Source: Acidobacteriota bacterium (lineage in GTDB: Bacteria; Acidobacteriota; Vicinamibacteria; Vicinamibacterales; UBA2999). From it: DNA of 64,000 nt. The position numbers and the translations under genes are program-made. The stretch is from NCBI GenBank assembly GCA_947482665.1, contig CANKJK010000001.1, positions 124,001-188,000 on the forward strand. The letters run 5' to 3'. Positions 1,915-13,870 of the stretch are shown here, piece after piece. The first letter of the stretch is position 1; every line of letters begins with the position of its first letter. The notes beneath the pieces are model-generated. The model did not search any database and had not been told where the DNA came from. It saw only the letters and a list, made by a program, of their open reading frames with translations.

Positions 1915-3291
1915 ATGCGAACGCTATTTGTCCGAACCCTCTTCCTGCTGGCGCTTGTCGCGCTGGCTCGGCCTGTTGTGGCGCAGACGACGCCGGTGTC
2001 CTCTGAGACTCCGGGTACGCCCGTTGGCCCGCCACCGAACGGCACGCCTGCAGCCGGGACTCCCGCCTCGCCGGGCACCCATGCCCCGGCCAGTTCGGCC
2101 GCGTCGGCCGTGGGGGTGTGCACCATCTCCGGTCCCGTCCTCACGCCCTCTGACTTTGGCGTCCCGGCCGGTCAGCCTGTCGCGGATGTCTCCACGACGT
2201 TGCTGGCCGACGGACGAATCCGCATGTACGCGTTTGCGCAGGGCCAGGGGATCCGGAGCGCCGTCTCCGTGAGCCAGGACGGTTTGAGTCTCCTGCCCGA
2301 AGTGGGGGCCCGGCTGGCAGATGGCGCGGGTATGCCCCGCATCGTGGGAGGCCCGGTTGGTGGGTACCGCCTGTTCTTTACTTCGGGCAACGGCATCAAG
2401 TCGGCCACCAGTGCAGACGGCCTGACATTTGGCATTGAGGCAGGATTTCGGATCAGTGCGGAGCAGGCTGGCTTCACCGACGCGGCCGGTGCGCTACAGG
2501 CCCTCAGCGGCGGGTCGATGGTGAACCTGCCCGATGGTCGGTATCGGTTGTATTTTTCGGACCTGCCCCGTCCCGGTGACACGCCAGGGGGGCACCGCGT
2601 GAAGAGCGCGGTCTCTTCGGACATGTTGACCTGGGAGGTCGAGCCGGGAGTTCGTATCGGGCCTGGCGCGGCCACGCTAATGGAGTCTGCCGAGCATCCC
2701 TTCGCCCTGCCGCATCCCGATGGCAGCGTCACCCTCTACTACGGCAAGTTCAGCACGGCGACGCCGGGGCTCGTAGAGGGGTTGTACTTCTCCACCTCCA
2801 CGGACGGTCTCACCTTCGGGACCGAGACGCTCGGCGTTTTCAACGGGAACGACCCCGACGGGATTCGCCGGCAGGATGGCACGCTGCTGATGTACTACGG
2901 TGGGTTCGACCCTGCGATCGGCGGCATCGTCAGTGTTGCGACATGTCCCGATCCGGCCGTGTCGGCCGAGGCGTCAGTCGCGACCACTCCGTCGCCGGCG
3001 CCGAGCAGCACCGCCACCATCACGATCACGAGCGCTGGCGCGTCCCCGCGAACAGTGACGATCGCGGCGGGCGGGCGGGTGACCTTCGTCAACGAGGATG
3101 GCCGCCCGCACGACATGTCGTCGGACCCGCATCCGGTACATACCGATTGTCAGGCGGTCAATCAAGTCGGGTTTCTGTCCCCCGGGCAGTCGCGTACGTC
3201 AGGCAATCTGACGACCGTGCGCACGTGCGGATTCCACGACCACGACCAGCCCACGAACACGAATCTTCAGGGCCAGATCATCATTCAGTAA
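1915..3291 (+). CDS. Secreted beta-propeller-like protein with C-terminal cupredoxin domain
   Basis: 458 residues. Signal peptide (hydrophobic stretch ending VVAQ near residue 24), then a Pro/Ala/Thr/Gly-rich linker. Residues about 75-345 contain repeated units of the form G-x-x-x-K/R-S-A-x-S-x-D-G-L-x-F, as in five-bladed propellers of glycoside-hydrolase-like exoproteins. Residues about 365-458 form a cupredoxin-like domain: TVTIAAGGRVTFVNEDGRPHDM and later TCGFHDHD, giving candidate type-1 copper ligands (His in RPHDM, Cys and His in CGFH). Substrate unknown. The gene stands alone and is followed by the broken tRNA-Leu gene. Confidence 0.72.
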   Translation: MRTLFVRTLFLLALVALARPVVAQTTPVSSETPGTPVGPPPNGTPAAGTPASPGTHAPASSAASAVGVCTISGPVLTPSDFGVPAGQPVADVSTTLLADGRIRMYAFAQGQGIRSAVSVSQDGLSLLPEVGARLADGAGMPRIVGGPVGGYRLFFTSGNGIKSATSADGLTFGIEAGFRISAEQAGFTDAAGALQALSGGSMVNLPDGRYRLYFSDLPRPGDTPGGHRVKSAVSSDMLTWEVEPGVRIGPGAATLMESAEHPFALPHPDGSVTLYYGKFSTATPGLVEGLYFSTSTDGLTFGTETLGVFNGNDPDGIRRQDGTLLMYYGGFDPAIGGIVSVATCPDPAVSAEASVATTPSPAPSSTATITITSAGASPRTVTIAAGGRVTFVNEDGRPHDMSSDPHPVHTDCQAVNQVGFLSPGQSRTSGNLTTVRTCGFHDHDQPTNTNLQGQIIIQ

Positions 3292-3373: not shown

Positions 3374-3418
3374 TGGCCCCGCTGGGAATCGAACCCAGAC
3401 GACCGTGAGGTCAGCGGA
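3374..3418 (-). pseudogene. 3' half of host tRNA-Leu(UAA), severed by element insertion
   Basis: Reading the minus strand from 3418 to 3374: 3' anticodon stem TCCGC, variable arm GACC-TCAC-GGTC, T-arm CTGGG-TTCGATT-CCCAG, 3' acceptor strand CGGGGCC and discriminator A; no encoded CCA. The 5' partner is at 13832-13870. Stem GCGGA there pairs exactly with TCCGC here, and acceptor GGCCCTG pairs with CGGGGCC with one G-U wobble. Immediately 5' of this half (3426 onward) the element sequence begins and offers no usable 5' half, so this copy is dead as a gene. Confidence 0.93.
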
Positions 3419-3428
3419 TTTTAAGTCC
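3419..3428. repeat. Left attachment core (att), TTTTAAGTCC
   Basis: Ten bases identical to 13832-13841. They cover the anticodon loop (CTTAAAA on the minus strand) and the first bases of the 5' anticodon stem. The flanking bases differ on both sides between the two copies, so the 10 bp is the whole shared core. Confidence 0.85.
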
Positions 3429-3465
3429 CCAATTTTACTTTATTCCCTAATTAAAGTGTCACTGA

Positions 3466-3484
3466 TTGTGACAACTTGTGACAA
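3466..3484. repeat. Left pair of TTGTGACAA motifs, probable integrase arm sites
   Basis: TTGTGACAA at 3466-3474 and again at 3476-3484, a 10-bp period (one helical turn), about 40 bp inside the left core. The same 9-mer occurs twice inside the right end at 13755-13763 and 13767-13775. Paired short direct repeats flanking a core are typical of arm-type sites of tyrosine integrases; binding here is inferred. Confidence 0.65.
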
Positions 3485-3496
3485 TATTCGGAATTG

Positions 3497-3814
3497 TGGG
3501 GGCGGTGGGAATCGAACCCACACGAGCTGTGAAGCCCTTCGGATTTTCGTACCGTCCACGACTTTCGTCGCCAGCGTCGGGATGCTGTTTGCGGTCTGGA
3601 ATGACCCTTCACCGTAGCCGCGTCAAGCGACCGTAGGTGCGCCCCGTCCATTCTCTACACCTTCCAGCCCCTCACGCGGCTGGCTTGGCTCGGGATTAGC
3701 ACGACGCACGAGCGCCAGAGCCTTCCCCGACTTTGAGGCGTTCTACTCGTGCTGTTTCCAGCACGGCACTCAGTTCGTCAAGTCCGATGCGTCTGCCAGT
3801 TTCGCCACGCCCCC
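3497..3814 (-). tRNA. tRNA-Leu(UAA) interrupted by a group I intron, carried by the element
   Basis: Exons are 3780-3814 and 3497-3547 (35 + 51 = 86 nt). Acceptor GGGGGCG pairs perfectly with CGCCCCC; D-arm GCG-AAACTGGCAGA-CGC; anticodon stem TCGGA/TCCGA; T-arm GTGGG-TTCGATT-CCCAC; discriminator A. Removing 3548-3779 gives loop CTTAAAA, anticodon UAA. Arms are intact and stems differ in sequence from the severed host copy, so this is a separate functional gene and not a duplication. A TACAAT box lies 8 nt upstream. It lies just inside the left end of the element, so it is cargo and probably replaces the destroyed host gene. Confidence 0.92.
3548..3779 (-). ncRNA. Group I intron (tRNA-Leu UAA type, probably IC3)
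   Basis: 232 nt between U34 and A35 of the tRNA, the site used by the classic cyanobacterial and plastid tRNA-Leu(UAA) intron. The upstream exon ends in U and the intron ends in G (omega-G, 3548). Exon GGACTT can pair with GAGTGCC in the intron as P1, with one bulge and a U-G pair at the splice site. Core blocks resemble the cyanobacterial intron: AATCCCGAGCCAAGCC (minus strand, 3697-3682) for the P4 region and GGTGTAGAGAATGG (from 3661 downward) for the P7 region; GGAAAC and AAAGTC blocks also match. No endonuclease ORF. Self-splicing is inferred. Confidence 0.9.
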
Positions 3815-3822
3815 GTGGGGAG

Positions 3823-3828
3823 ATTGTA
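3823..3828 (-). promoter_or_regulatory. Minus 10 box of the cargo tRNA-Leu gene
   Basis: TACAAT on the minus strand, 8 nt upstream of the mature tRNA 5' end. The corresponding -35 region (around 3846-3851) is weak by eye. It suggests the cargo tRNA is transcribed from its own promoter and does not depend on the host tRNA promoter, which is at the other end of the element. Confidence 0.5.
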
Positions 3829-3966
3829 GGTCCACTCGCCCGCGGGACGCACCAGCGTTCCCTGAAGCGGCGTCAACTCCCAGACGAGCCAAGGACACCA
3901 AGCCCCATCCGTTCGCGCGTTACACGCGCTGCCAGCGTCCTTGGTGAGCGCGTCTGGGGACACCCG

Positions 3967-4116
3967 CTAACCCGAGCGGACCATTCCCCTAGCCTTTCCC
4001 ACGTCGGGGTTCGGTGGGGGAGGTGCCAACGCAGATGTCTCTCTGCACGCCACGCCGCTCATCAGCAGCACCACCAGCACGTCGCCCAGACGTCTGCGCG
4101 TCAGGGATGTCCTCAT
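3967..4116 (-). CDS. Small lipoprotein-like ORF coupled to the Sel1 gene
   Basis: 49 residues starting at ATG 4116, directly after the stop of the Sel1 gene (TAGATG). The N-terminus TRRRLGDVLVVLLMSGVAC is almost a copy of the Sel1 protein's signal sequence (TRRRLGGVLVVLLVSGVAG), but ends in Cys, so it may be a lipoprotein signal. The rest (RETSALAPPPNPDVG onward) is short and Pro-rich. It is either a real small lipoprotein made by translational coupling or the head of a second Sel1 gene whose body was lost by deletion. Function unknown. Confidence 0.45.
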   Translation of the reverse strand: MRTSLTRRRLGDVLVVLLMSGVACRETSALAPPPPNPDVGKARGMVRSG

Positions 4117-5493
4117 CTACTTCTCGCCACGCTTCTCAAACGCTGCCAGCCACTCCCTCGCTAGCTTCTGAGCCTCTGCCAGTTGAGCAGGCGTCATCAG
4201 CGTTGCCAGGAGATCACGCGCCTCTGAGGATTTCTTCTGGTCCTCTGCGGACGCAGGAGACGCCCCGAGGGTGCACCATTTATGCGCTTCAACGTAATCC
4301 TGCGGCACACCGCGTCCGTAGGCATACATCAACCCAAGGTTGCTTTGGGCAGCTGCATACCCTTGATCCGCCGCCCTGCGAAACCCCTCTGCCGCCTGGG
4401 CGTCGTCCTTCGGCACGCCACGCCCGTTGAGATACGCAAGCCCAAGGTTGTTGTGGGCATCAGCGAAGCCTTGATCTGCTGCCCTGCGGTACCACGCCAC
4501 CGCTTGCGTGTCGTCATGCGACACACCACGCCCGCTTGCGTACATCAACCCAAGGTTGTATTGGGCGTTCGCGATGCCTCGGTCCGCCGACTTGCGATAC
4601 CACGCCACCGCTTGGGCATCTTCCTGCGGCACGCCACGCCCGTTGTCATACATGACCCCAAGGTTGTACTCAGCAGCCGCGTCCCCTTGGTCTGCTGCCT
4701 TGCGGTACCACGCCACGGCTTGCATGTTGTCCTGGGGAACGCCTTGCCCGTTCGCATACATCAACCCAAGGTTGTACTGGGCAGCTGCAAACCCTTGGTA
4801 CGCCGCCTCGCGATACCACGCCACCGATTGGGCGTCGTCCTGTGGCACGCCCTGCCCGTTGTCATACATGACCCCAAGGGCGTGTTGGGCAGCCGCATGT
4901 CCTTGGTCTGCCGCCTTGCGATACCACCCCGCTGCTTGTGCGTCGTCCTGCGGTACGCCTTGCCCGCCTGTGTACATCAAGCCGAGGTTGTACTGGGCAG
5001 CCGCATGTCCTTGGTCTGCCGCCTTGCGATACCACTCGACAGCTTGGACTCCGTCCTCGGGGACAGCGAGACCATTCTCATGCATCCCCCCGAGAATGAA
5101 CTGCGCGGGAGCGTATCCTCTCTCCGCCGACTTGCGATACCACGCTACCGCTTGGGCATCTTCCTGCGGCACGCCCCGCCCCTCCCGATACGCATACCCA
5201 AGGTTGCTCTGGGCGAGTGAGTATCCCTGCTCAGCCGCTTTGCGATACCACGCCACCGCTTGCGCATCGTCCTGCGGGACGCCCCGCCCGAACCGATACG
5301 CAAACCCAAGGATGTTCTGGGCAACTGCGTTTCCTGCGTTCGCTTTGACACGGAGGGCTGCGATGTCAGTAGGCGCTGTCTGTGCCGTCTCGGTCTGCGC
5401 ACGAGGACGGACGGAGGGGGTCTGCGCACCCGCTACGCCACTCACCAGTAGCACCACCAGCACGCCGCCCAGACGTCTGCGCGTATTCAGCAT
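4117..5493 (-). CDS. Secreted Sel1-like repeat (SLR) protein
   Basis: 458 residues. Signal peptide (LGGVLVVLLVSGVAGAQ), then ten consecutive 36-residue Sel1 repeats of pattern G-x-A-x-A-Q-x-N-L-G-x-M-Y-x-x-G-x-G-V-P-Q-D-x-x-Q-A-V-A-W-Y-R-K-A-A, then a C-terminal cap (EDQKKSSEARDLL onward). Sel1 solenoids are protein-binding scaffolds in the envelope; no catalytic residues are expected. First of three Sel1-type genes or remnants in the element. Repeats are very similar to each other, implying recent internal amplification. Confidence 0.85.
   Translation of the reverse strand: MLNTRRRLGGVLVVLLVSGVAGAQTPSVRPRAQTETAQTAPTDIAALRVKANAGNAVAQNILGFAYRFGRGVPQDDAQAVAWYRKAAEQGYSLAQSNLGYAYREGRGVPQEDAQAVAWYRKSAERGYAPAQFILGGMHENGLAVPEDGVQAVEWYRKAADQGHAAAQYNLGLMYTGGQGVPQDDAQAAGWYRKAADQGHAAAQHALGVMYDNGQGVPQDDAQSVAWYREAAYQGFAAAQYNLGLMYANGQGVPQDNMQAVAWYRKAADQGDAAAEYNLGVMYDNGRGVPQEDAQAVAWYRKSADRGIANAQYNLGLMYASGRGVSHDDTQAVAWYRRAADQGFADAHNNLGLAYLNGRGVPKDDAQAAEGFRRAADQGYAAAQSNLGLMYAYGRGVPQDYVEAHKWCTLGASPASAEDQKKSSEARDLLATLMTPAQLAEAQKLAREWLAAFEKRGEK
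4272..5345. repeat. Ten tandem 108-bp units encoding Sel1 repeats
   Basis: The 36-codon Sel1 unit recurs head to tail through this stretch with high identity at DNA level; for example CCAAGGTTG and GCGATACCACGCCACCG recur at 108-bp spacing. Boundaries are approximate. The array could change copy number by slippage or recombination. Confidence 0.8.
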
Positions 5494-5785
5494 TCGCCGA
5501 GTGTAGCCGAGCCACAGGGGGGAGATGCGGAGTCCCAGACCCCACCCTCACGGCTCGCTGGAAGAAGCACCAGAACCGTCACCAGCGCGTCCTGCCAGTC
5601 CGTGGCGACACGACCCCAAGGACACCCGCACACTCGCTTCGTCGGGGCTGTCGGCGCTCCTGAGTCAGTGTTCGATTAGCGAGCGATGTAGCCCCACTTG
5701 CCCGTCTGGTCGTCACCGATGCGGACTGGGGCGAGCCCCTCGCTGAAAGGGCACACCCCGTTCGCAGGGTGTAGGATTCTTCCCG
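5494..5785. other. Intergenic region before the HNH gene
   Basis: No gene recognised. Between the divergent Sel1 and HNH genes, so both promoters should lie here. An inverted repeat ACACCC-N8-GGGTGT (about 5752-5771) lies roughly 14 bp before the HNH start codon and could be an operator or a hairpin in the leader. Confidence 0.4.
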
Positions 5786-6547
5786 ATGGCACCCCCGAAA
5801 GAGCCACGCAATCCCGACTGGAGTGAGGACGAGATCATTCTCGCCCTCGACGCGTATCTCTCAGCCAAACCGAAGGACCTGCAGAAGGCGAGTCCTGAGG
5901 TCGCGGAACTGAGCGCGTTGCTGCGCCAGCGGTTCCGTCAAATGGGCATTCAGGGTCAGGACACGCTGCGCAATATCGCGGGCGTGTATATGAAGCTCCA
6001 GAACCTCAAAGCACACGACCCCGACTACCTCGCTCGTGGCAAGCGTGGTCTCGCCGCAGGGAATCGCCTCGAACAGCGGGTCTGGGAGCAGTTCGGAACG
6101 CACCCCGCCGAACTTCATGCTCACTCACACCAACTGCGAGCGTTTATCGCCGCGAAGGTGCAAGTCGGCGATGTCGAAGACGACGTCCAGGTGATTGATG
6201 GCGCACTCGCATCGGAAGGGCGTTTGCTCGTGCGCGTCCACAAGACCTACGAACGCAGCAAGAGCAATCGCAATAGAAAGATCCAGCAGTTCCAGGCACA
6301 GCACGAGGGGCGGGTGTTCTGCGAGTGCTGCGGTTTCGACTTCGAGCGCACGTACGGAGAGCGCGGTCATGGCTTCATCGAGTGCCATCACGCGGTTCCA
6401 TTGTCGCGCTTAGCGCCTACTCAGAAGCTGTCGCTGCGCGACCTACGGCTCCTGTGCGCCAACTGCCATCGCATGATTCACATTGCGCAACCGTGGCTAT
6501 CCATCGAAACGCTGGCAGCGGGAATGAAGCTTCCTCGTTCCCGATAG
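5786..6547 (+). CDS. HNH endonuclease, McrA-like (type IV-like restriction)
   Basis: 253 residues. C-terminal HNH domain with a zinc site: C179-x-x-C182, ECHH at 199-202 with the catalytic-type His, DLRLLCANCHRMIH at 219-232 with C224-x-x-C227. The N-terminal region (WSEDEIILALDAYL) and the middle (GLAAGNRLEQRVWEQFG) match the arrangement of bacterial HNH restriction proteins that act on modified or foreign DNA. No methyltransferase is nearby, which favours a modification-dependent (type IV) enzyme over a type II system. The specificity domain is not identified. First gene of the rightward defence block. Confidence 0.8.
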   Translation: MAPPKEPRNPDWSEDEIILALDAYLSAKPKDLQKASPEVAELSALLRQRFRQMGIQGQDTLRNIAGVYMKLQNLKAHDPDYLARGKRGLAAGNRLEQRVWEQFGTHPAELHAHSHQLRAFIAAKVQVGDVEDDVQVIDGALASEGRLLVRVHKTYERSKSNRNRKIQQFQAQHEGRVFCECCGFDFERTYGERGHGFIECHHAVPLSRLAPTQKLSLRDLRLLCANCHRMIHIAQPWLSIETLAAGMKLPRSR

Positions 6548-6740
6548 CGAAGGACCCACTGACTCACCGATACACGATCGGGTTCGCGTCAGCGCTGCTC
6601 ATGGTTGGCGGATTGGCGTCCGCACACACACCACCTCCGTCCAGTTGTGGGACGTCTTCTGTCTCAGGCGTCTGTCGGTGGATATCGCGGTAGAGCAACT
6701 ACTCTGAGGTTTCGGCTACCCTGTGCGCGGAGTGTCCTAA

Positions 6741-7670
6741 ATGGCTGTCCCGACCTACGACCTGACTATTCGTCCCGTGCTGGAACTGGCAGCTCGCCAA
6801 GACATCACCCGTCGCAGCGCAGTGCTTGCGATGCGCGACCATTTCCACCTCACCGAGGAGGAGATGGCGCTTCGCATTCCCAGCGGATCAGATGGGGTTG
6901 CGAGCAACCGCACAGGGTGGGCAATGACCTACCTTACAAAGGCGGGTCTGCTCGCAAAGATCGCACCGAAGACCTACCGCGCAACCGAGGCAGGGCGCGC
7001 GTTCCTCCTCGACCACAAGGGCGACATCAACAAGGAGGACCTTCTCACGATCGACACATTTCGAGAGTTCGCGGTTGGATCGCGGCACACGAAGCACGGC
7101 GACGCTACACCGCAGACCATAGGCGAGGTAGCAGACAGCACCCGCACTCCCATCGAAGTCATCGATGGTGCGGTTGAGACTCTCCATTCGGATGTTCGAC
7201 AGCGACTCCTTGAGGCGATCCTCGCGCAAGACCCTGAGTTCTTCGAGCATCTGGTGCTCGATGTGCTGTCCAAGATGGGCTACGGCGACATTCATCAGGA
7301 CGCGGTGCTTCATACGGGAAGGAGCGGCGACGAAGGTATCGACGGACGCATCAATCAGGACGCACTAGGACTGGATCAAGTGCTGGTTCAGGCAAAGCGG
7401 TTTAGTCCTGAACAGGTCGTGCCTAGAAAAGATATTCAGGCGTTCATAGGTTCCCTTGCAGGGCAGGGCGTGACGAAAGGTGTCTTCATTACAACCAGTT
7501 CATTCGCTGCATCCGCGCAGGAGTTCGTCCAACGTGGGAGTTCGACCAAGGTGGTGCTCATCGATGGGCGCACCCTCATCGACCTAATGATGCGCTACAA
7601 GGTCGGTGTGCGAGTTGAGCGGACGGTCGAGGTGCTCGACATCGATCAGAACTACTTCAGTGAGGAGTAA
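6741..7670 (+). CDS. mrr: Mrr-family restriction endonuclease
   Basis: 309 residues. N-terminal Mrr_N-type winged helix (residues about 5-90, including TGWAMTYLTKAGLL) and C-terminal PD-(D/E)xK domain: FFEHLVLDVLSKMGYG, GRSGDEGIDG with D201, VLVQAKR with Q217-x-K219, then IQAFIGSLAGQGVTKGVFITTS. Mrr enzymes cut methylated DNA without a partner methyltransferase (type IV). The stop is 5 nt before the next gene, so it is probably co-transcribed with the membrane Sel1 protein. A gap of about 190 bp separates it from the HNH gene. Confidence 0.9.
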   Translation: MAVPTYDLTIRPVLELAARQDITRRSAVLAMRDHFHLTEEEMALRIPSGSDGVASNRTGWAMTYLTKAGLLAKIAPKTYRATEAGRAFLLDHKGDINKEDLLTIDTFREFAVGSRHTKHGDATPQTIGEVADSTRTPIEVIDGAVETLHSDVRQRLLEAILAQDPEFFEHLVLDVLSKMGYGDIHQDAVLHTGRSGDEGIDGRINQDALGLDQVLVQAKRFSPEQVVPRKDIQAFIGSLAGQGVTKGVFITTSSFAASAQEFVQRGSSTKVVLIDGRTLIDLMMRYKVGVRVERTVEVLDIDQNYFSEE

Positions 7671-7675
7671 ATAAG

Positions 7676-8260
7676 ATGATGACCGCGCTTGTGGCGGCGT
7701 TGCTCCTGTGTGGAGCAATGGCTTTTTGGTATGTACGGCGAGAGCGGCGCGATCCAATCGTCGAGAAGACCAGACTGTCCGTTCTCTTCAAACGGTCTAG
7801 GGAGGGGTCTGATGTCCAAGCCATGCTGGAGCTGGCGCATGCGTATTCCGAGGGAATAGGCGTCCGCAAAAACAAAGATCTCGCTGAGCATTGGCTAGGG
7901 AGGTCACGTGATGTGTTCCTCGAGGCGATCTTTCAGCAAAGCATCCACAGTCTCAGGAGCGAACCCAGGCATCCCGAACTAGCTCTTGAAGGACTGAGGC
8001 TGGCATCAGGGCAAGGGTACGCGAAGGCACAACTGATTCTGGCGGGTCTGCTGGTTGTGGGAGACGACGTCCCGCAGGATCTGGTCGAAGGGTATCGGAT
8101 GGCGAACGTGGTGGCGGAGTCTGCAATCGACGAATCTGTCAGGGTAAGCGCAGAGGAGCTGCTGGTTATAGCGGAGGCTCAGATGTCGGCGGAACAGGTC
8201 GAGGAAGCGAAGAAGTCCTCGTCGGGCGGCGGGCTCGGGGTGTCGCATTCGGAAGGCTGA
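7676..8260 (+). CDS. Membrane-anchored Sel1-repeat protein in the mrr operon
   Basis: 194 residues. N-terminal membrane segment (ALVAALLLCGAMAFWYV, residues about 4-20) followed by RRERR, so the body is likely cytoplasmic. Sel1-like units at about 48-80 (AMLELAHAYSEGIGVRKNKDLAEHWLGR) and 108-145 (GYAKAQLILAGLLVVGDDVPQDLVEGYRMA), then the same type of C-terminal cap as the secreted Sel1 protein (SAEELL then QMSAEQVEEAKK). GAGGAG upstream supports the start (7676 or 7679). Directly downstream of mrr, suggesting a partner or membrane tether for the nuclease. Confidence 0.7.
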   Translation: MMTALVAALLLCGAMAFWYVRRERRDPIVEKTRLSVLFKRSREGSDVQAMLELAHAYSEGIGVRKNKDLAEHWLGRSRDVFLEAIFQQSIHSLRSEPRHPELALEGLRLASGQGYAKAQLILAGLLVVGDDVPQDLVEGYRMANVVAESAIDESVRVSAEELLVIAEAQMSAEQVEEAKKSSSGGGLGVSHSEG

Positions 8261-8302
8261 GACTCTTCGATACGGGTCGCTGATGTTCTGGTGGTGCTAC
8301 TG

Positions 8303-8512
8303 ATGGAATTCCAAGGCGTGTTCCCGTGGCTTGTGGTGGGCGGTCTTCTCTGGTCTGTGCGAGCGCGTCTGGTGAGCATGGAGAGCCGCGTCGCGTCTCT
8401 TCGAGTCGAGGCGCAACAGCGGCACGACGCGCGAGCGAGAGCCGAGCAGATCATTCGACAGTGTCCCAACCTCAGCTTTGGTCGACACCTGCGCGCGCTG
8501 CTAGCTGTGTGA
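8303..8512 (+). CDS. Small membrane protein with charged coiled-coil tail
   Basis: 69 residues from ATG 8303 (GTG 8291 is an alternative). A hydrophobic stretch GVFPWLVVGGLLWSV is followed by an Arg/Glu/Gln-rich helix (SMESRVASLRVEAQQRHDARARAEQIIRQ). Forty-odd bases after the membrane Sel1 gene, same strand. No family recognised; existence supported by composition and operon position only. Confidence 0.45.
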   Translation: MEFQGVFPWLVVGGLLWSVRARLVSMESRVASLRVEAQQRHDARARAEQIIRQCPNLSFGRHLRALLAV

Positions 8513-8879
8513 GGCGGCGCAATGGGAATGTCTGCGATCTGTATCCACGCACTAATCCTCTGCGCGTCGTGTCCGAAAGAAGGATGCGTGTAGTCGTCAC
8601 TGGTTACGCTGCGTGCGTCAAGCAACAGACACTCTGCGTGCAGTCCCGCGAACGCGAGCACGATCTCGTCGGCGGGTACCGAGGACGGGGTGTTCATGGC
8701 AGGGCTCATTTCCGTTCATCAATGCACACTCGGTGGACTACTGGTCTGGTACCAGTTCTGCGGTGGATCCGACCGAAGCATGGTCAGCCAACCTCTTCGC
8801 TGGTTACACGCGCCTAGCCCCCAAGATTTTGTTGGAGGGGTTCGCTCAAGTGTGGACAGTACGCGCGCCAGTTCCGACC
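8513..8879. other. Region without recognisable gene
   Basis: Several short open frames exist (for example ATG 8697, 71 codons) but none shows a family motif, a convincing ribosome site or sensible composition. It lies where the rightward mrr operon meets the leftward small-gene operon, so terminators or decayed sequence are likely. Confidence 0.4.
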
Positions 8880-9041
8880 CTACCTTAGCGAGGACGCGAC
8901 GCACTCCCTGATCAGGTCCGAGCGAGTGACCCCTCGGTCTTTCGCTCGGTCCGTCAGCGTCTTCAGCAATCGCACTGTCCCTCGGAACGTGATCACCACG
9001 TCGAGGTAGTCGGTGGTCGTCGTGATCGTCGTGTTCGTCAT
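8880..9041 (-). CDS. Small ribbon-helix-helix DNA-binding protein
   Basis: 53 residues starting at ATG 9041. DYLDVVITFRGTVRLLKTLTDRAKDRG fits an RHH strand plus helix 1, and VTRSDLIRECVASSLR fits helix 2 with the usual S-x-x-I/L-x-x-x pattern. Such proteins repress plasmid copy, mobilization or toxin operons. Last gene of a five-gene leftward operon; no toxin is adjacent, so a copy-control or autorepressor role is as likely as an antitoxin role. Confidence 0.68.
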   Translation of the reverse strand: MTNTTITTTTDYLDVVITFRGTVRLLKTLTDRAKDRGVTRSDLIRECVASSLR

Positions 9042-9053
9042 TCGCGCTCCCAT

Positions 9054-9251
9054 TCAGCGAGCTACCACCAGCACCGCAACCGCATAGGGTCGACTGGTGT
9101 TGTTCAGTTTCTTCAGCAGGTCGGCGTGGTCTGTGGCATCCGTCACGTTGAACACGACTGTCTTGAACAGGGGGTTCTTCATCGCGGTGGCAACGTGCTG
9201 CGGCGTCGTCATCTCAACGGTCTTGGTCGTGCCTCCTACATGCAGTTTCAT
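9054..9251 (-). CDS. Small protein of unknown function
   Basis: 65 residues: begins MKLHVGGTTKTVEMTTPQHV and ends YAVAVLVVAR. AAGGAG lies about 9 nt upstream of ATG 9251. No known family. The alternating polar/hydrophobic strands suggest a small beta-rich fold. It follows the 59-residue ORF and precedes the small RHH gene, so it is part of the replication-like operon. Confidence 0.6.
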   Translation of the reverse strand: MKLHVGGTTKTVEMTTPQHVATAMKNPLFKTVVFNVTDATDHADLLKKLNNTSRPYAVAVLVVAR

Positions 9252-9252
9252 G

Positions 9253-9432
9253 TCATCGCTCCTTGTCTGGGGTTGGCTTCACGTGCGAGACAGGCGGCAC
9301 CCGTTGTCTCGGTCGTGGCACGCGCTGCTGGGTCGCGAGTCGTTGCGGGTGATTCCATGTCCAGTGCGAGACGAACACCCGATCCCGCTGGCTGGTGATG
9401 GCTTCGCAGTATTCCGCAAACGTCGGCAGCAC
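9253..9432 (-). CDS. Small basic protein coupled to the upstream RHH gene
   Basis: 59 residues from GTG 9432. The start overlaps the stop of the upstream RHH gene (TAGTG), and GAGGAGGA just before it serves as ribosome site. Sequence: LPTFAEYCEAITSQRDRVFVSHW at the front, then an Arg/Pro/Gln-rich tail (QRVPRPRQRVPPVSH) ending PTPDKER. No family recognised; the basic tail would suit nucleic-acid binding. The tight coupling is the main evidence that it is real. Confidence 0.55.
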   Translation of the reverse strand: MLPTFAEYCEAITSQRDRVFVSHWTWNHPQRLATQQRVPRPRQRVPPVSHVKPTPDKER

Positions 9433-9776
9433 TAGTCCTCCTCCTCGGCGCGTGTTGGTGTCCGTCGCGTGTAGAGTCCGTGTTCGAGGCACCACAGGAC
9501 CGACTCCCTGATTAAGGCTGACGCGGTGGTGTCGTACTCGGTGGCGAGACGGTCTAGCGTGGCAATCGTCGCGCGTGGCAACCGCGTGCATGCGGCGGTG
9601 CTGTTGTCCGTCGCTTCTCCGTGCTTCACCATCACCGCGGTGAGTTCTTGCTTGATGACATAGCGGTCGATCTTCGTGGCGCGCTGGAACCGTTCCCGCA
9701 ATCGTCTGATGTCGTGGCGGTCCAGTGTCATGGCTGGTGCTGGTTCGGTGGTGCTGTGTGGGTCGAATAGGTTCAT
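9432..9776 (-). CDS. Ribbon-helix-helix transcriptional regulator-like protein
   Basis: 114 residues. A helical N-terminal part (DIRRLRERFQRATKIDRYVI) is followed by an RHH domain at residues 63-102: CTRLPRATIATLDRLATEYDTTASALIRESVLWCLEHG. GGAGG 9 nt upstream of ATG 9776 is a strong ribosome site. It follows the HUH-like gene by 21 nt. Likely a regulator or accessory DNA-binding protein of the replication or mobilization module. Confidence 0.65.
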   Translation of the reverse strand: MNLFDPHSTTEPAPAMTLDRHDIRRLRERFQRATKIDRYVIKQELTAVMVKHGEATDNSTAACTRLPRATIATLDRLATEYDTTASALIRESVLWCLEHGLYTRRTPTRAEEED

Positions 9777-9797
9777 CTGTCTTGTCCTCCGTATTAC

Positions 9798-10469
9798 TTA
9801 TGCGACAGCGGCGAGGGCGGCTTTCCAGTACCACCCTGGCTGGGCGATCGGCTGGGAGACACACCGCGCTTCCACGGCTGGTGCGGGGCGCAGATAGTCG
9901 GCGTGCTCGCTCAGCAGCGCTGGCGTCTCAGGCACGACGAGGCACGGTCGTTCTGCGTGGCGGTCGTTCTCAAGGTGGATATTCGTGCCGAATGCGTCGA
10001 TCAGGTGTCGCAGAAGGACAGCACACGGGCGTGGACACAGGGCACGTCGTGGTGCTCGGTCTTGTCGGATCACCACCTCATCCAGCTCACTCGGTGACGG
10101 CAGAACGCACCTGATCCAGCCGTGGTAGTGAATACGACGTCCCCCCGTCGTCACCGCTGGCACCAGGAAGGCAGCGACCTTCGCCGATGCTCGCGTACGT
10201 TCTGGGTGGTTCCGCGAGAACGCTGGATCGAGTTCGATCAGGGTCTGGTGAATGGCTGTCTTCACCCGCATGGCAGTTGTGCGTGAGGTTCGATCCACCA
10301 GTTCTTGCGGTTCCAGTGTGTCCGCTTGTGATCGGGTCATGACGTCTTTGAATACATCGGTCCGTGGTTTGATCGTGATCCAGAACCAATGGGCATCCTG
10401 ATCGTTCTCGTGGAGGGTCTTGATCCAGTTCATCCATTCGTTGTGTTGATCCTGTTGTGTCTGATTCAT
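9798..10469 (-). CDS. Possible HUH-type replication initiator or relaxase-like protein
   Basis: 223 residues from ATG 10469 (GGAG upstream). HWFWITIKP at 27-35 resembles rolling-circle motif 1, and RRIHYHGWIRC at 111-121 (H114-Y-H116) resembles the HUH metal site of motif 2. The nicking Tyr is uncertain: Y192 or Y214 (WYWK) are candidates, and no clean YxxK motif is seen. First gene of a leftward operon with two RHH proteins, an arrangement common in small replicons. A longer N-terminal extension is open but lacks a better start. Could instead be an unrelated protein with a chance HYH. Confidence 0.5.
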   Translation of the reverse strand: MNQTQQDQHNEWMNWIKTLHENDQDAHWFWITIKPRTDVFKDVMTRSQADTLEPQELVDRTSRTTAMRVKTAIHQTLIELDPAFSRNHPERTRASAKVAAFLVPAVTTGGRRIHYHGWIRCVLPSPSELDEVVIRQDRAPRRALCPRPCAVLLRHLIDAFGTNIHLENDRHAERPCLVVPETPALLSEHADYLRPAPAVEARCVSQPIAQPGWYWKAALAAVA

Positions 10470-11097
10470 CGTGATTAGCTCCGTTGACTCTGTGTATGTG
10501 AGGGTTCTTAGCTGTTCTTGGACATAGCTGCGGCATAAGCACCTGTCGTTGCGTGCTCGCGTGGGCGTATTCACCGCAATGTCTGTCCACTGGGGACAAG
10601 ACATCGCGTCACGCAGGGCAGGCGACTGCTGCGTGTTGTGTATTACTTAGGGAGCGGGGTGTTCCACCGCTCACGCACACGGTGCACCACCCAGAACGAG
10701 CTGCTCTGTTGTAGCGGGAACCCCTGCGTGTCCTCGGGACCCCCAGCGCCCCAAGGTTGAACTGGGCGTCTGCGAATCCCTGCTCGGCGGCATTACGAAT
10801 AGTCGTGTGGGTCACATTGCTCTCTTTGTGTCCCTGCATGAACCCGCACGAGTCGGGATCCATCCAGAGTGGTGACACGTAGCAGTCGCAGATCCTCGTC
10901 ATTGAGGAACACGCTGCTCCGTGGTGTTGCTGTGTTGTCGTGCTGAGGTGGGAGACGAGAGGCAGGAAACCGCAGATAGAACGTGCGAGCGACTGACAGA
11001 CGGATCGATCCACCCGTGTTCCCCGAGCTGCTGGTGATGCGTCCCTGAAGGACGATCCCGCTGCGGTGCTGGGTGACGGTGTTGTGCGTTCGGTTCT
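10470..11097. other. Mostly non-coding region with decayed sequence
   Basis: No intact gene recognised. It should contain the promoter of the leftward replication-like operon. It holds a Sel1 remnant (10740-10800). A leftward open frame here (10609-11013) is out of frame with any protein except for that remnant. GTATTACTTA occurs here (10639-10648) and again just downstream of the HUH-like gene (9791-9800). Confidence 0.45.
10740..10800 (-). pseudogene. Fragment of a Sel1-repeat gene
   Basis: The translation reads RNAAEQGFADAQFNLGALGVP, clearly one Sel1 unit like those of the secreted SLR protein, then runs into unrelated residues. No signal peptide or further repeats are in frame. It is the remnant of a third Sel1 gene or of a recombination between copies. 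Confidence 0.7.
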
Positions 11098-11715
11098 CTA
11101 CATCAACTTCACCAACTTCCTCTGTGCTTCCGCATCCTGATCTACGTATCGCTGTGTCATTGCGAGGGATGCGTGTCCCGCAAGTGCTTGAACGTCCCGC
11201 ATGGAACCCCCGACGGACGAGACCATTCGTGCGGCTTTCGTCAAAAACGTCCGACGTCCACTGTGACTTGACGCACCGACGAACCCGAGTTCCTTGAACC
11301 AGTCCTTGTTGAACAGAAACGACACGCTCGCAGCTCGGGATGGAAGGTCCAGGTTTCCTTTTGCGAGCGTCACCACATACCCGTCAGGCGTCACCCGTCC
11401 GCGCTCTTGCTCGTCCTCCATCAACTCACCCAGCGCGGCTTTCAGCTCTGGGTGCAGCGGCAGGACGCGTCCCCCGCGCTTTCCCTTGCTCGCGGTGTTC
11501 GTGAGCGCAAGCGAGTCGGCGAGGTTCCCTTCGGCATCAGTGAGCATTCCCCACGTGACACCCGCGATCTCTCGTGCTCGCAAGCCCGCACGGAACGACA
11601 AGAGGACGATGACGCGGTTCCGCTTAGGAAACCGTGTTTCGGTCTCTACGTAGCGGAGCAGCGCACGCACCTGCACCTCCGTGAGCGTCTTGGCTTGCTT
11701 CCCGAGCCCTGTCAT
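11098..11715 (-). CDS. Minimal tyrosine recombinase (catalytic domain only)
   Basis: 205 residues, lacking the arm-binding and most of the core-binding domain. Catalytic residues are all present: R46 (GLRAREIAG), Lys in the beta-hairpin near 77-79 (SKGKR), H151-x-x-R154 (SSHSGRRTFLT), H181 (LAGHASLAMTQRYV) and Y190. AGGAGA upstream supports the start. Resembles plasmid or phage resolvases of the XerC/D type. It may resolve element multimers or act as a second recombinase; it is separate from the main integrase at the right end. Confidence 0.85.
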   Translation of the reverse strand: MTGLGKQAKTLTEVQVRALLRYVETETRFPKRNRVIVLLSFRAGLRAREIAGVTWGMLTDAEGNLADSLALTNTASKGKRGGRVLPLHPELKAALGELMEDEQERGRVTPDGYVVTLAKGNLDLPSRAASVSFLFNKDWFKELGFVGASSHSGRRTFLTKAARMVSSVGGSMRDVQALAGHASLAMTQRYVDQDAEAQRKLVKLM

Positions 11716-11741
11716 CGCGCAATCTCCTGCCTTTCATGTGT

Positions 11742-11902
11742 ACTACCAACTTACATTAGAATTATATACTATTTGGTAGTTCTTGTCAAGCGCTATTGTC
11801 GGCTCAGCACCCACTATTGTCTTGTAAGTCATTGAAAATAAAGCAGTTGTGCTATTTCATACACCCCTAGAAACACTACCGATAACTAGTATTGTTGGTA
11901 GT
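11742..11902. promoter_or_regulatory. AT-rich divergent control region with repeated ACTACC/GGTAGT operators
   Basis: Between the leftward recombinase and the rightward helix-turn-helix gene. Two inverted pairs occur: ACTACCAA (11742-11749) with TTGGTAGT (11773-11780), and ACTACC (11875-11880) with GGTAGT (11897-11902). Each pair sits nearer one of the divergent genes. The whole stretch 11740-11965 is strikingly AT-rich against its surroundings, as expected for promoters or a replication origin. The binding protein is unknown; an RHH protein of the element is a natural candidate. Confidence 0.5.
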
Positions 11903-11971
11903 AACGTATTTGCTTAATATGTCTGTGTTGTTTGATTGTGTGTATTAATGTTGCAATTTGTTGCGTGTTAG

Positions 11972-12595
11972 ATGGATACTGCCGTCATGACGTCAGCCAA
12001 GAAGTCAGCCGCCGAACTCCTCGAAGACGCCAAGCGCGTAGCACCGCGTGAGTCGCTCCAGGAACATCGACAGACCATCGCGACCCTCCGAGCCAAGAAC
12101 TACACGTGGCGGGAGATCGCGCAGTTCTTGGTGGAGCGGGGAGTCGATACCGACCATACGAAGGTCTTTCGTTTCATGCAGCCAAAAGGAGATAAGAAGA
12201 TGACCTTGCCCGAAACGCTCACTGTTCCCACCTCCGATGACTACGTCAATGCGTTGACTGCGGTCTCCAGCGACATTAGCGAGAACCAGCGCAAGATGCT
12301 GGAGCATCACTACAGAGCGCACAACCGAACCGTCACCTTCGGGGAACTTGCCAGTGCCGCTGGCTATGCGGACTACCGCGCCGCGAACCTGCACTACGGC
12401 AAACTCGGCAGTCTCATCGGAGACAAGGTTGGAATGCAGTACGCACTGCTGGACGAGACGAACCCTGAAAGCGACGCGTTCTACAGCAGCGCCATCGGCT
12501 CGGGCAGTCATTACCGAAACGCCGCAGGGGAATTTCAGCTGATCATGCACCATGAGATCGCCAAGGCGATCGCACGTCTAGGCTGGTTCAAGTAA
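11972..12595 (+). CDS. Two-domain DNA-binding protein (helix-turn-helix plus uncharacterised C-terminal domain)
   Basis: 207 residues; ATG 11972, or ATG 11987 as alternative. Residues about 28-68 (EHRQTIATLRAKNYTWREIAQFLVERGVDTDHTKVFRFM) form a resolvase/TraK-type helix-turn-helix. Residues about 105-207 (VTFGELASAAGYADYRAANLHYGKLG to HHEIAKAIARLGWF) form a separate domain. From memory it resembles modules found next to nuclease domains in restriction proteins, but I cannot name the family. It lies between the divergent control region and the integrase and may be the element's regulator or a DNA-modification sensor. Confidence 0.6.
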   Translation: MDTAVMTSAKKSAAELLEDAKRVAPRESLQEHRQTIATLRAKNYTWREIAQFLVERGVDTDHTKVFRFMQPKGDKKMTLPETLTVPTSDDYVNALTAVSSDISENQRKMLEHHYRAHNRTVTFGELASAAGYADYRAANLHYGKLGSLIGDKVGMQYALLDETNPESDAFYSSAIGSGSHYRNAAGEFQLIMHHEIAKAIARLGWFK

Positions 12596-12631
12596 TCCAG
12601 CGCGCTGAATTTAGGGTGTGGGCGATCGCGC

Positions 12632-13744
12632 TCACACCAATTCTTCTACGTTCAGGTCAACCGACAGTCGCTTGAGGTAGAACGTATCCAGCATTGCCAC
12701 GCTGGTTCCCGCGTTGTCAGCAAGCAGCTTCAGGTTGATACGTGGGTTCGCCTTGATTCGCATCATCAGTCCCGTGCTACGTAGCGACTTGAGGTTGCGA
12801 ACGTTCCCGAATCCATCCTTCCGCAGTCCTGCGGCGTCCAGCAGTTCCCTGAACCCGTCGCGGTGGTGTTCCCGAAAGAGCAGATCGTCTGGCTGGAGGC
12901 TCCGACGCTTAACCAACCGCTCATACGCGGACGCTGCACCCGACCAGCCAATGCTCTTGCGGTTCCCTGTCTTTCCCTGAATTCGCATCTCCAGGTAGGG
13001 ACGCCCTTTGTCCTTGAGTCGCTTGACAGCGCAATCACGGACGCGCAATCGGCGCACCTCGTCCACCCGAGCGCAGGAATGCACCATCAGCAGGCAGAAG
13101 TCGTAGAGTTCCTCCCGCTGCTGCTTGGTGCGTGGGTTCAGGTTGTCTTCGCCAATGCGCGCCTTCGCGACTCGCTGGAGCGTCGTCCATTCGTCGGGAT
13201 CGAGCCACGGACGCGGATTTGCCGCGATCTTTCCGACAGGTGGAAAGGGAGCGGGCAGCGTTGCTAGCCAGCCTTCAAGGACGGCGTGTTTCAGCGCCTG
13301 GCGAATCGTCACCAAGTCCTTGTGCAAGGTGGACGGGGTGAGCGTCTTGCCGTCCTTGGCAGCGGATTCCCGTCGCCACTTGAGAAAGTCGTTCAGAACT
13401 TTCGGGGAGACATCCACCACGTCCCAGGGCTTGAAGAACTCGCGGGCGATGTTCCATTTCGCTTGGTGCGAAATGCGCTTTTGCGGGGACTGGATGGACG
13501 CGAGGAATGCTTCGGCAGCGGCTCCCATCGAGCGGGACGGTCCGATCCCCTGCTGGACGTTCAGCAGTCCACGAAACCACGACAGCGCGATTCGTTCCGC
13601 GCGTTTGAAATCGGTCGTCTCGGTATTCGTGAAATGGATCTGTCCCTTGATGCACGCGCGCGCCTTCAGGAACGCAGCACCCTTGCGCTCGTCGAGGTAG
13701 AGCCCTTTTTGAATCTTGAATGAGTGATTTGCCGCGTAGCCCAT
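12632..13744 (-). CDS. int: Tyrosine integrase of the tRNA-Leu element
   Basis: 370 residues from ATG 13744; a TTG start at 13780 would translate the arm-site repeats and is unlikely. N-terminal part (AANHSFKIQKGLYLDERKGAAFLKAR) suits an arm-binding domain, residues about 70-160 a SAM-like core-binding domain, and the C-terminal part the catalytic domain. Catalytic set: R226 (SCARVDEV), K258 (QGKTG), K319-x-x-R322 (NLKSLRST, Lys where His is usual), N344 (LADNAGTS, Asn where His is usual) and nucleophile Y356 (DTFYLKR). Placed 90 bp from the right att core, reading inward, as normal for tRNA-targeting integrases. Confidence 0.88.
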   Translation of the reverse strand: MGYAANHSFKIQKGLYLDERKGAAFLKARACIKGQIHFTNTETTDFKRAERIALSWFRGLLNVQQGIGPSRSMGAAAEAFLASIQSPQKRISHQAKWNIAREFFKPWDVVDVSPKVLNDFLKWRRESAAKDGKTLTPSTLHKDLVTIRQALKHAVLEGWLATLPAPFPPVGKIAANPRPWLDPDEWTTLQRVAKARIGEDNLNPRTKQQREELYDFCLLMVHSCARVDEVRRLRVRDCAVKRLKDKGRPYLEMRIQGKTGNRKSIGWSGAASAYERLVKRRSLQPDDLLFREHHRDGFRELLDAAGLRKDGFGNVRNLKSLRSTGLMMRIKANPRINLKLLADNAGTSVAMLDTFYLKRLSVDLNVEELV

Positions 13745-13754
13745 ACGCGGTATA

Positions 13755-13775
13755 TTGTGACAAAAGTTGTGACAA
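13755..13775. repeat. Right pair of TTGTGACAA motifs, probable integrase arm sites
   Basis: TTGTGACAA at 13755-13763 and 13767-13775, same 9-mer and same orientation as the left pair. They lie just upstream of the integrase start codon, so integrase binding could also repress its own gene. Confidence 0.65.
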
Positions 13776-13831
13776 CTCAATAGTCACATTAAGTCATTTG
13801 TTTACAATAACTTAAGTGTAATTGTTGGTGC

Positions 13832-13841
13832 TTTTAAGTCC
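13832..13841. repeat. Right attachment core (att), TTTTAAGTCC
   Basis: Identical to 3419-3428; covers the anticodon loop and the beginning of the 5' anticodon stem of the severed host tRNA. On its element side (13831 and lower) no tRNA 3' half follows. Confidence 0.85.
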
Positions 13842-13870
13842 GCAGCGTCTACCAGTTCCGCCACAGGGCC
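13832..13870 (-). pseudogene. 5' half of host tRNA-Leu(UAA), severed by element insertion
   Basis: Minus strand from 13870: acceptor GGCCCTG, TG, D-arm GCG-GAACTGGTAGA-CGC, T, anticodon stem GCGGA and loop CTTAAAA (39 nt), after which element sequence begins. It completes the 3' half at 3374-3418 to an 84-nt tRNA. Its promoter is still in place, so a half-tRNA leader followed by element sequence should be transcribed, leading into the integrase gene. Confidence 0.93.

Follow-up and report, generated by a model that had tools for sequence, protein, structure and literature searches.

An acidobacterial integrative element that carries a replacement for the tRNA-Leu(UAA) gene it splits, with a group I intron that probably masks the attachment core

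Integration into a host tRNA gene that is not rebuilt, with rescue by a carried tRNA, is known from actinobacteriophages as tRNA-dependent lysogeny (Guerrero-Bustamante and Hatfull, 2024; PMC10865867), an account in which introns and the masking of the carried gene are not discussed. A related idea, namely that a tRNA intron at the attachment site blocks integration, was raised for a mobile element disrupting tRNA-Thr in Caldiarchaeum, where it was suggested that adding an intron could benefit the integrated element, and the Randau-Soll hypothesis was cited for tRNA introns at attachment sites blocking integration (PMC3293823). Tycheposons, likened here by their description, are also tyrosine recombinase elements with a tRNA gene at the border, and no intron is described for them as far as that account goes (PMC10872708). 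The element reported here lies in a 64-kb stretch of acidobacterial DNA (hereafter the window) and shares with the actinophage systems a common core within a host tRNA, the lack of rebuilding, a cargo tRNA of the same isotype and a tyrosine integrase beside the attachment site. It differs from them in its host, an acidobacterium, in showing no phage structural or lysis genes when nine of its proteins were searched against PHROGs, and in the carried tRNA, which is split within the core by a group I intron. Unlike the Caldiarchaeum case, where an archaeal tRNA intron lies in the rebuilt tRNA, a ribozyme intron here occupies a separate replacement gene, and sibling elements reach the same end through base-pair changes. 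The first-pass annotation, made from the sequence by a reader to whom the whole combination was new, holds in this respect only for the intron: rescue by a carried tRNA is already known from tRNA-dependent lysogeny, while a replacement split within the attachment core appears new. Nor is the combination peculiar to this element: roughly a dozen further elements in acidobacteria share it, as does one phage already published. tRNA-dependent integration thereby reaches beyond actinophages, to integrative elements in a second phylum.

The window belongs to a draft genome (38 contigs, 97.5% complete) whose class-level relatives include named Acidobacteriota and Vicinamibacterales MAGs. The integrase-bearing element spans 3419-13841 (10.4 kb), has a lower GC content than its flanks and interrupts the host's tRNA-Leu(UAA) gene at the anticodon loop. 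The flanks are the two halves of a single minus-strand gene, the 3' half at 3374-3428 and the 5' half at 13832-13870, each including a core copy, and when joined in silico they gave an intact, intronless tRNA-Leu(taa). The 10-bp core TTTTAAGTCC (minus strand GGACTTAAAA) is present twice in the window, at 3419-3428 on the left and 13832-13841 on the right, against 0 in 100 shuffles, and no rebuilt host tRNA-Leu(UAA) was found at either junction; the earlier reading of an insertion in the anticodon loop, rebuilt nowhere, agrees with both halves being broken. The arm-type repeat TTGTGACAA occurs in exactly two copies per element end, as a pair at 3466-3484 (3466-3474 and 3476-3484) and another at 13755-13775 (13755-13763 and 13767-13775), and nowhere else in the 64 kb. 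The integrase (12632-13744, minus strand), whose start adjoins the host tRNA 5' half, is a tyrosine recombinase matching PHROG phrog_1 (E 3e-18), and its relatives are annotated as tyrosine-type recombinases. A PDB search with the integrase profile returned no match, no relatives were found in the viral contigs or phages searched, and plasmid relatives were only 25-27% identical. The remaining cargo includes a Sel1-repeat protein (4117-5493, minus strand), an HNH endonuclease (5786-6547, plus strand) and a Mrr-type restriction endonuclease (6741-7670, plus strand), the two nucleases standing side by side at 5786-7670 as possible defence cargo; besides its integrase the element also holds a second tyrosine recombinase, XerC-like and limited to the catalytic domain (11098-11715, minus strand).

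Just inside the left end lies the replacement tRNA-Leu(UAA) (3497-3814, minus strand; exon 1 at 3780-3814, exon 2 at 3497-3547), a gene missed, together with its intron, by default ARAGORN and by Rfam. Once introns were allowed, ARAGORN placed a tRNA-Leu(taa) on the minus strand at 3496-3814, interrupted by a 232-nt intron. The intron (3548-3779, minus strand) sits between U34 and A35, and its splice point CTT^AAAA falls within the 10-bp core, as the first-pass annotation had also seen. It is 71-73% identical to tRNA introns elsewhere and aligns with the tRNA-Arg(CCU) intron of a genome of the same class (G152), the conserved core being present, and likewise with plasmid introns and one from a phage. 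P7 was fully paired in 83 of 88 related introns, in five pair combinations, and the window intron shows a compensated pairing that no other has, ATG/CAT. By homology and P7 covariation it is a group I intron; the lack of any match to the Rfam group I model, at the gathering threshold or at a permissive one (E up to 10), probably reflects insensitivity of the model, given that covariation and those homologues. A candidate P1, read directly from the sequence, pairs ACUU of the 5' exon with GAGU of the intron and leaves a U.G at the splice site; self-splicing is predicted. The group I intron of cyanobacterial tRNA-Leu(UAA) occupies the same U34/A35 position. In these described bacterial introns the gene is the same and the ribozyme core related (PMC3984707), but they reside in chromosomal or plastid tRNAs, whereas the window intron is cargo of an element.

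The tRNA scan of the genome returned 42 hits, with the leucine isoacceptors UAG, CAG, GAG and CAA intact and no second tRNA-Leu(UAA) among them; the contiguous anticodon arm GGACTTAAAATCC, searched with at most one mismatch, was present in the genome at the left junction only. UUA, which only the UAA anticodon reads, is rare but used by the host (8 UUA codons in 20 host ORFs). Judged from the anatomy, it is close to certain that the element's copy replaces the host tRNA-Leu(UAA) and, with no further such gene found and UUA in use by the host, the cargo gene probably supplies the lost tRNA after predicted splicing. In two element-free relatives (G135 and G143) the site is empty, an M1 peptidase orthologue being followed by an intronless tRNA-Leu(UAA), which identifies the intron-bearing copy as cargo. 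The intron motif occurred in 2 of the 193 genomes of the class, the window's own and that of G152, where it lies in tRNA-Arg, and in no native tRNA-Leu(UAA) across those 193 genomes. A sibling element of 5.5 kb (G089), with an integrase 62% identical to that of the window, splits tRNA-Leu(UAG) at an 11-bp core and carries, inside the end distant from the integrase, a complete intronless tRNA-Leu(UAG) whose stem reads AGA..TCT in place of GGA..TCC, the core being thereby broken. As this element also brings a replacement, the cargo tRNA is not incidental. The suppositions of the first-pass annotation that the host has no second copy, that the intron-bearing tRNA is cargo and that its presence is not incidental are thus borne out. 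The relatives in G091 and G095 appear to rebuild the gene classically with a 3' half.

The arrangement is repeated in a second acidobacterial integrase family (f26), whose members are 26-30% identical to the window integrase and adjoin broken tRNA-Leu 5' halves. At loci where target and downstream sequence could both be read, an intron-split tRNA-Leu(UAA) followed the integrase by approximately 134 bp in all ten UAA-targeting elements (G506, G843, G726, G493, G824, G857, G676, G733, G736 and G327:C31), and stood beside the integrase in 1 of 18 CAA-targeting ones (Fisher test by hand, approximately 1e-6, the loci being related to one another). The notion that a replacement is dispensable for CAA-targeting elements was ruled out by intronless tRNA-Leu(CAA) genes located far from the integrase. 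In G506 (9 contigs, 100% complete) and G493 both host halves are non-functional, and a motif search found no other intact tRNA-Leu(UAA) in either genome; G327 departs from this, its genome holding an intact tRNA-Leu(UAA) without intron elsewhere, besides the intron-bearing one. A further locus, G369:C72, has a broken UAA half and an intron-bearing tRNA, with no integrase detected. In the intron tree the f26 introns cluster (0.95), G736 groups with G451 and G199 (0.95), and the window intron is placed outside those groups with weak support, so that independent intron placements are perhaps few, three or four groups; as the elements within each family share ancestry, the counts are not independent. 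In G451 an intron-split tRNA-Leu(UAA) comes immediately after a broken tRNA-Leu(UAA) 5' half, and another intron-split copy lies at a distance of 3 kb; this may be what remains of an insertion that decayed, or the result of one that was repeated.

Wherever both element ends are known, the contiguous core occurs at the two ends only. All ten intronless replacements examined (that of G089 and the tRNA-Leu(CAA) of G402, G512, G500, G369:C30, G742, G720, G869, G881 and G654) differ at the base pair next to the loop, a change that disrupts the core; it is AGA..TCT in seven and GGT..ACC in three, with the anticodon loop itself unchanged. All twelve intron-split replacements, the window's and eleven others, keep GGACTT^AAAATCC. 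The GGA..TCC stem is found in 18 of 22 distinct tRNA-Leu(CAA) and 19 of 20 tRNA-Leu(UAA) sampled from the phylum, and viral intron-bearing tRNA-Leu(UAA) have AGA 34 times and GGA 29 times; with AGA about as frequent as GGA in those copies, the stem does not seem to be dictated by the intron. Since the stem change is confined to intronless replacements and absent from intron-split ones, the intron and the altered pair appear to be alternative means of abolishing the core. Isotype is confounded with the intron in this comparison, as the acidobacterial intron-split replacements are all UAA and the intronless ones all CAA or UAG. The intron probably masks the core, and the replacement would thus be no target for integration, an immunity to which the pattern points. 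Core masking is, on the same pattern, well supported as the best reason for the arrangement. The old idea of tRNA introns shielding genes from integration gains a comparative footing, with an intron or a compensating pair in 22 of 22 replacements.

The published phage with this design is Gordonia phage Daredevil (NC_048021.1), in which a tRNA-Lys(UUU) absent from the annotation and interrupted by a 238-nt group I intron lies at 2786-3265, 166 bp from an attP-like anticodon arm, CGGACTTTTAATCCGC, whose core its exons match over 16 bp. Daredevil was reported to integrate at tRNA-Lys-TTT without rebuilding it, to encode no tRNA and to form clear plaques (PMC10865867). The hidden split gene alters the view of this phage as tRNA-less: default tRNA annotation misses intron-split genes, and the published exception is such a hidden case. 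The clear plaques indicate that rescue is not guaranteed and that the split tRNA may fail in that host. Group I introns in tRNA genes proved common on phage contigs (Leu UAA, Arg, Lys, Met/Ile, Thr); the intron motif lay in a tRNA gene at 84 of 120 viral loci, mostly Leu(UAA), in contradiction to a 2014 review that places phage introns only in protein genes (PMC3984707). Among those 84 loci, the Daredevil record was the only one with an att core match of at least 12 bp, which rules out that phage tRNA introns generally mark att sites.

The foremost alternative is that the replacement tRNA works while its intron is a passenger, inherited from an intron-bearing source, and core masking an unselected by-product. 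The U34/A35 position of tRNA-Leu(UAA) is the classic home of group I introns, and within the second family the elements that target UAA come from closely related ancestors; viral tRNA introns, moreover, are nearly always found without an att core, so that the intron by itself is no marker of such systems, and this and the confounding of isotype with intron both favour a passenger. However, outside elements of this kind intron-bearing tRNA-Leu(UAA) is nearly absent in Acidobacteriota, being found in 7 of 396 sampled genomes, six times beside a broken tRNA-Leu half. A passenger intron would also leave unexplained why the stem is changed in every intronless replacement and in no intron-split one, GGA not being forced by the intron in view of the viral copies, and Daredevil repeats the pattern with another isotype and another integrase. 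We therefore regard a passenger intron as unlikely, though worth keeping in mind. That the intron or changed stem instead serves to fend off nucleases of the anticodon loop or to tune tRNA expression appears very improbable: anticodon nucleases and their evasion by phages through anticodon-loop mutation are indeed discussed (PMC10865867 and its references), but the spliced intron-split copies share loop and closing stem with the host tRNA and would gain no resistance, and the loop is unaltered in the intronless copies. An assembly or binning error, with an intact tRNA-Leu(UAA) in the missing 2.5% of a draft genome in 38 contigs or with the element misassembled, is hardly credible when all expected leucine isoacceptors except UAA are intact and the same architecture recurs in the complete G506, in G493 and in others.

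We thus favour, with fair though not full confidence, the reading of the locus as a tRNA-dependent integrative element with an intron-masked replacement tRNA. In this mechanism the tyrosine integrase recombines a short anticodon-loop core of the one tRNA-Leu(UAA) gene that the host has, an event that, as the anatomy shows, destroys the gene, and the element's complete tRNA-Leu(UAA) would take its place after self-splicing. If its anticodon loop were intact, the replacement would be one more attachment core, and hence it must be masked at the DNA level, which the group I intron in the loop may accomplish here and the changed base pair beside the loop in the sibling elements, as the pattern of replacements suggests. 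It counts against masking that some actinophage integrases may need a 3-bp overlap only (PMC10865867), and that both intron and stem change leave this overlap in place. Whether every tRNA-destroying element must carry a replacement invisible to its integrase, the group I intron being one of two recurrent solutions, we judge to be evenly balanced. Such an intron would hide the attachment site in DNA and vanish in RNA, which could explain why a self-splicing intron is retained, and if the general rule is true, a ribozyme intron has a selected function at the DNA level.

Introns of this kind extend beyond the elements considered above. In three further Acidobacteriota (G290, G350 and G439), tRNA genes of uncertain isotype, with no link to an integrase here, contain group I introns of 280-600 nt. 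The window intron is also matched, at approximately 71% identity, by 1273 plasmid records (e.g., pCTX-M3), and each of the three plasmids opened carries an intron-bearing tRNA-Leu(UAA) near aac(3)-IId.
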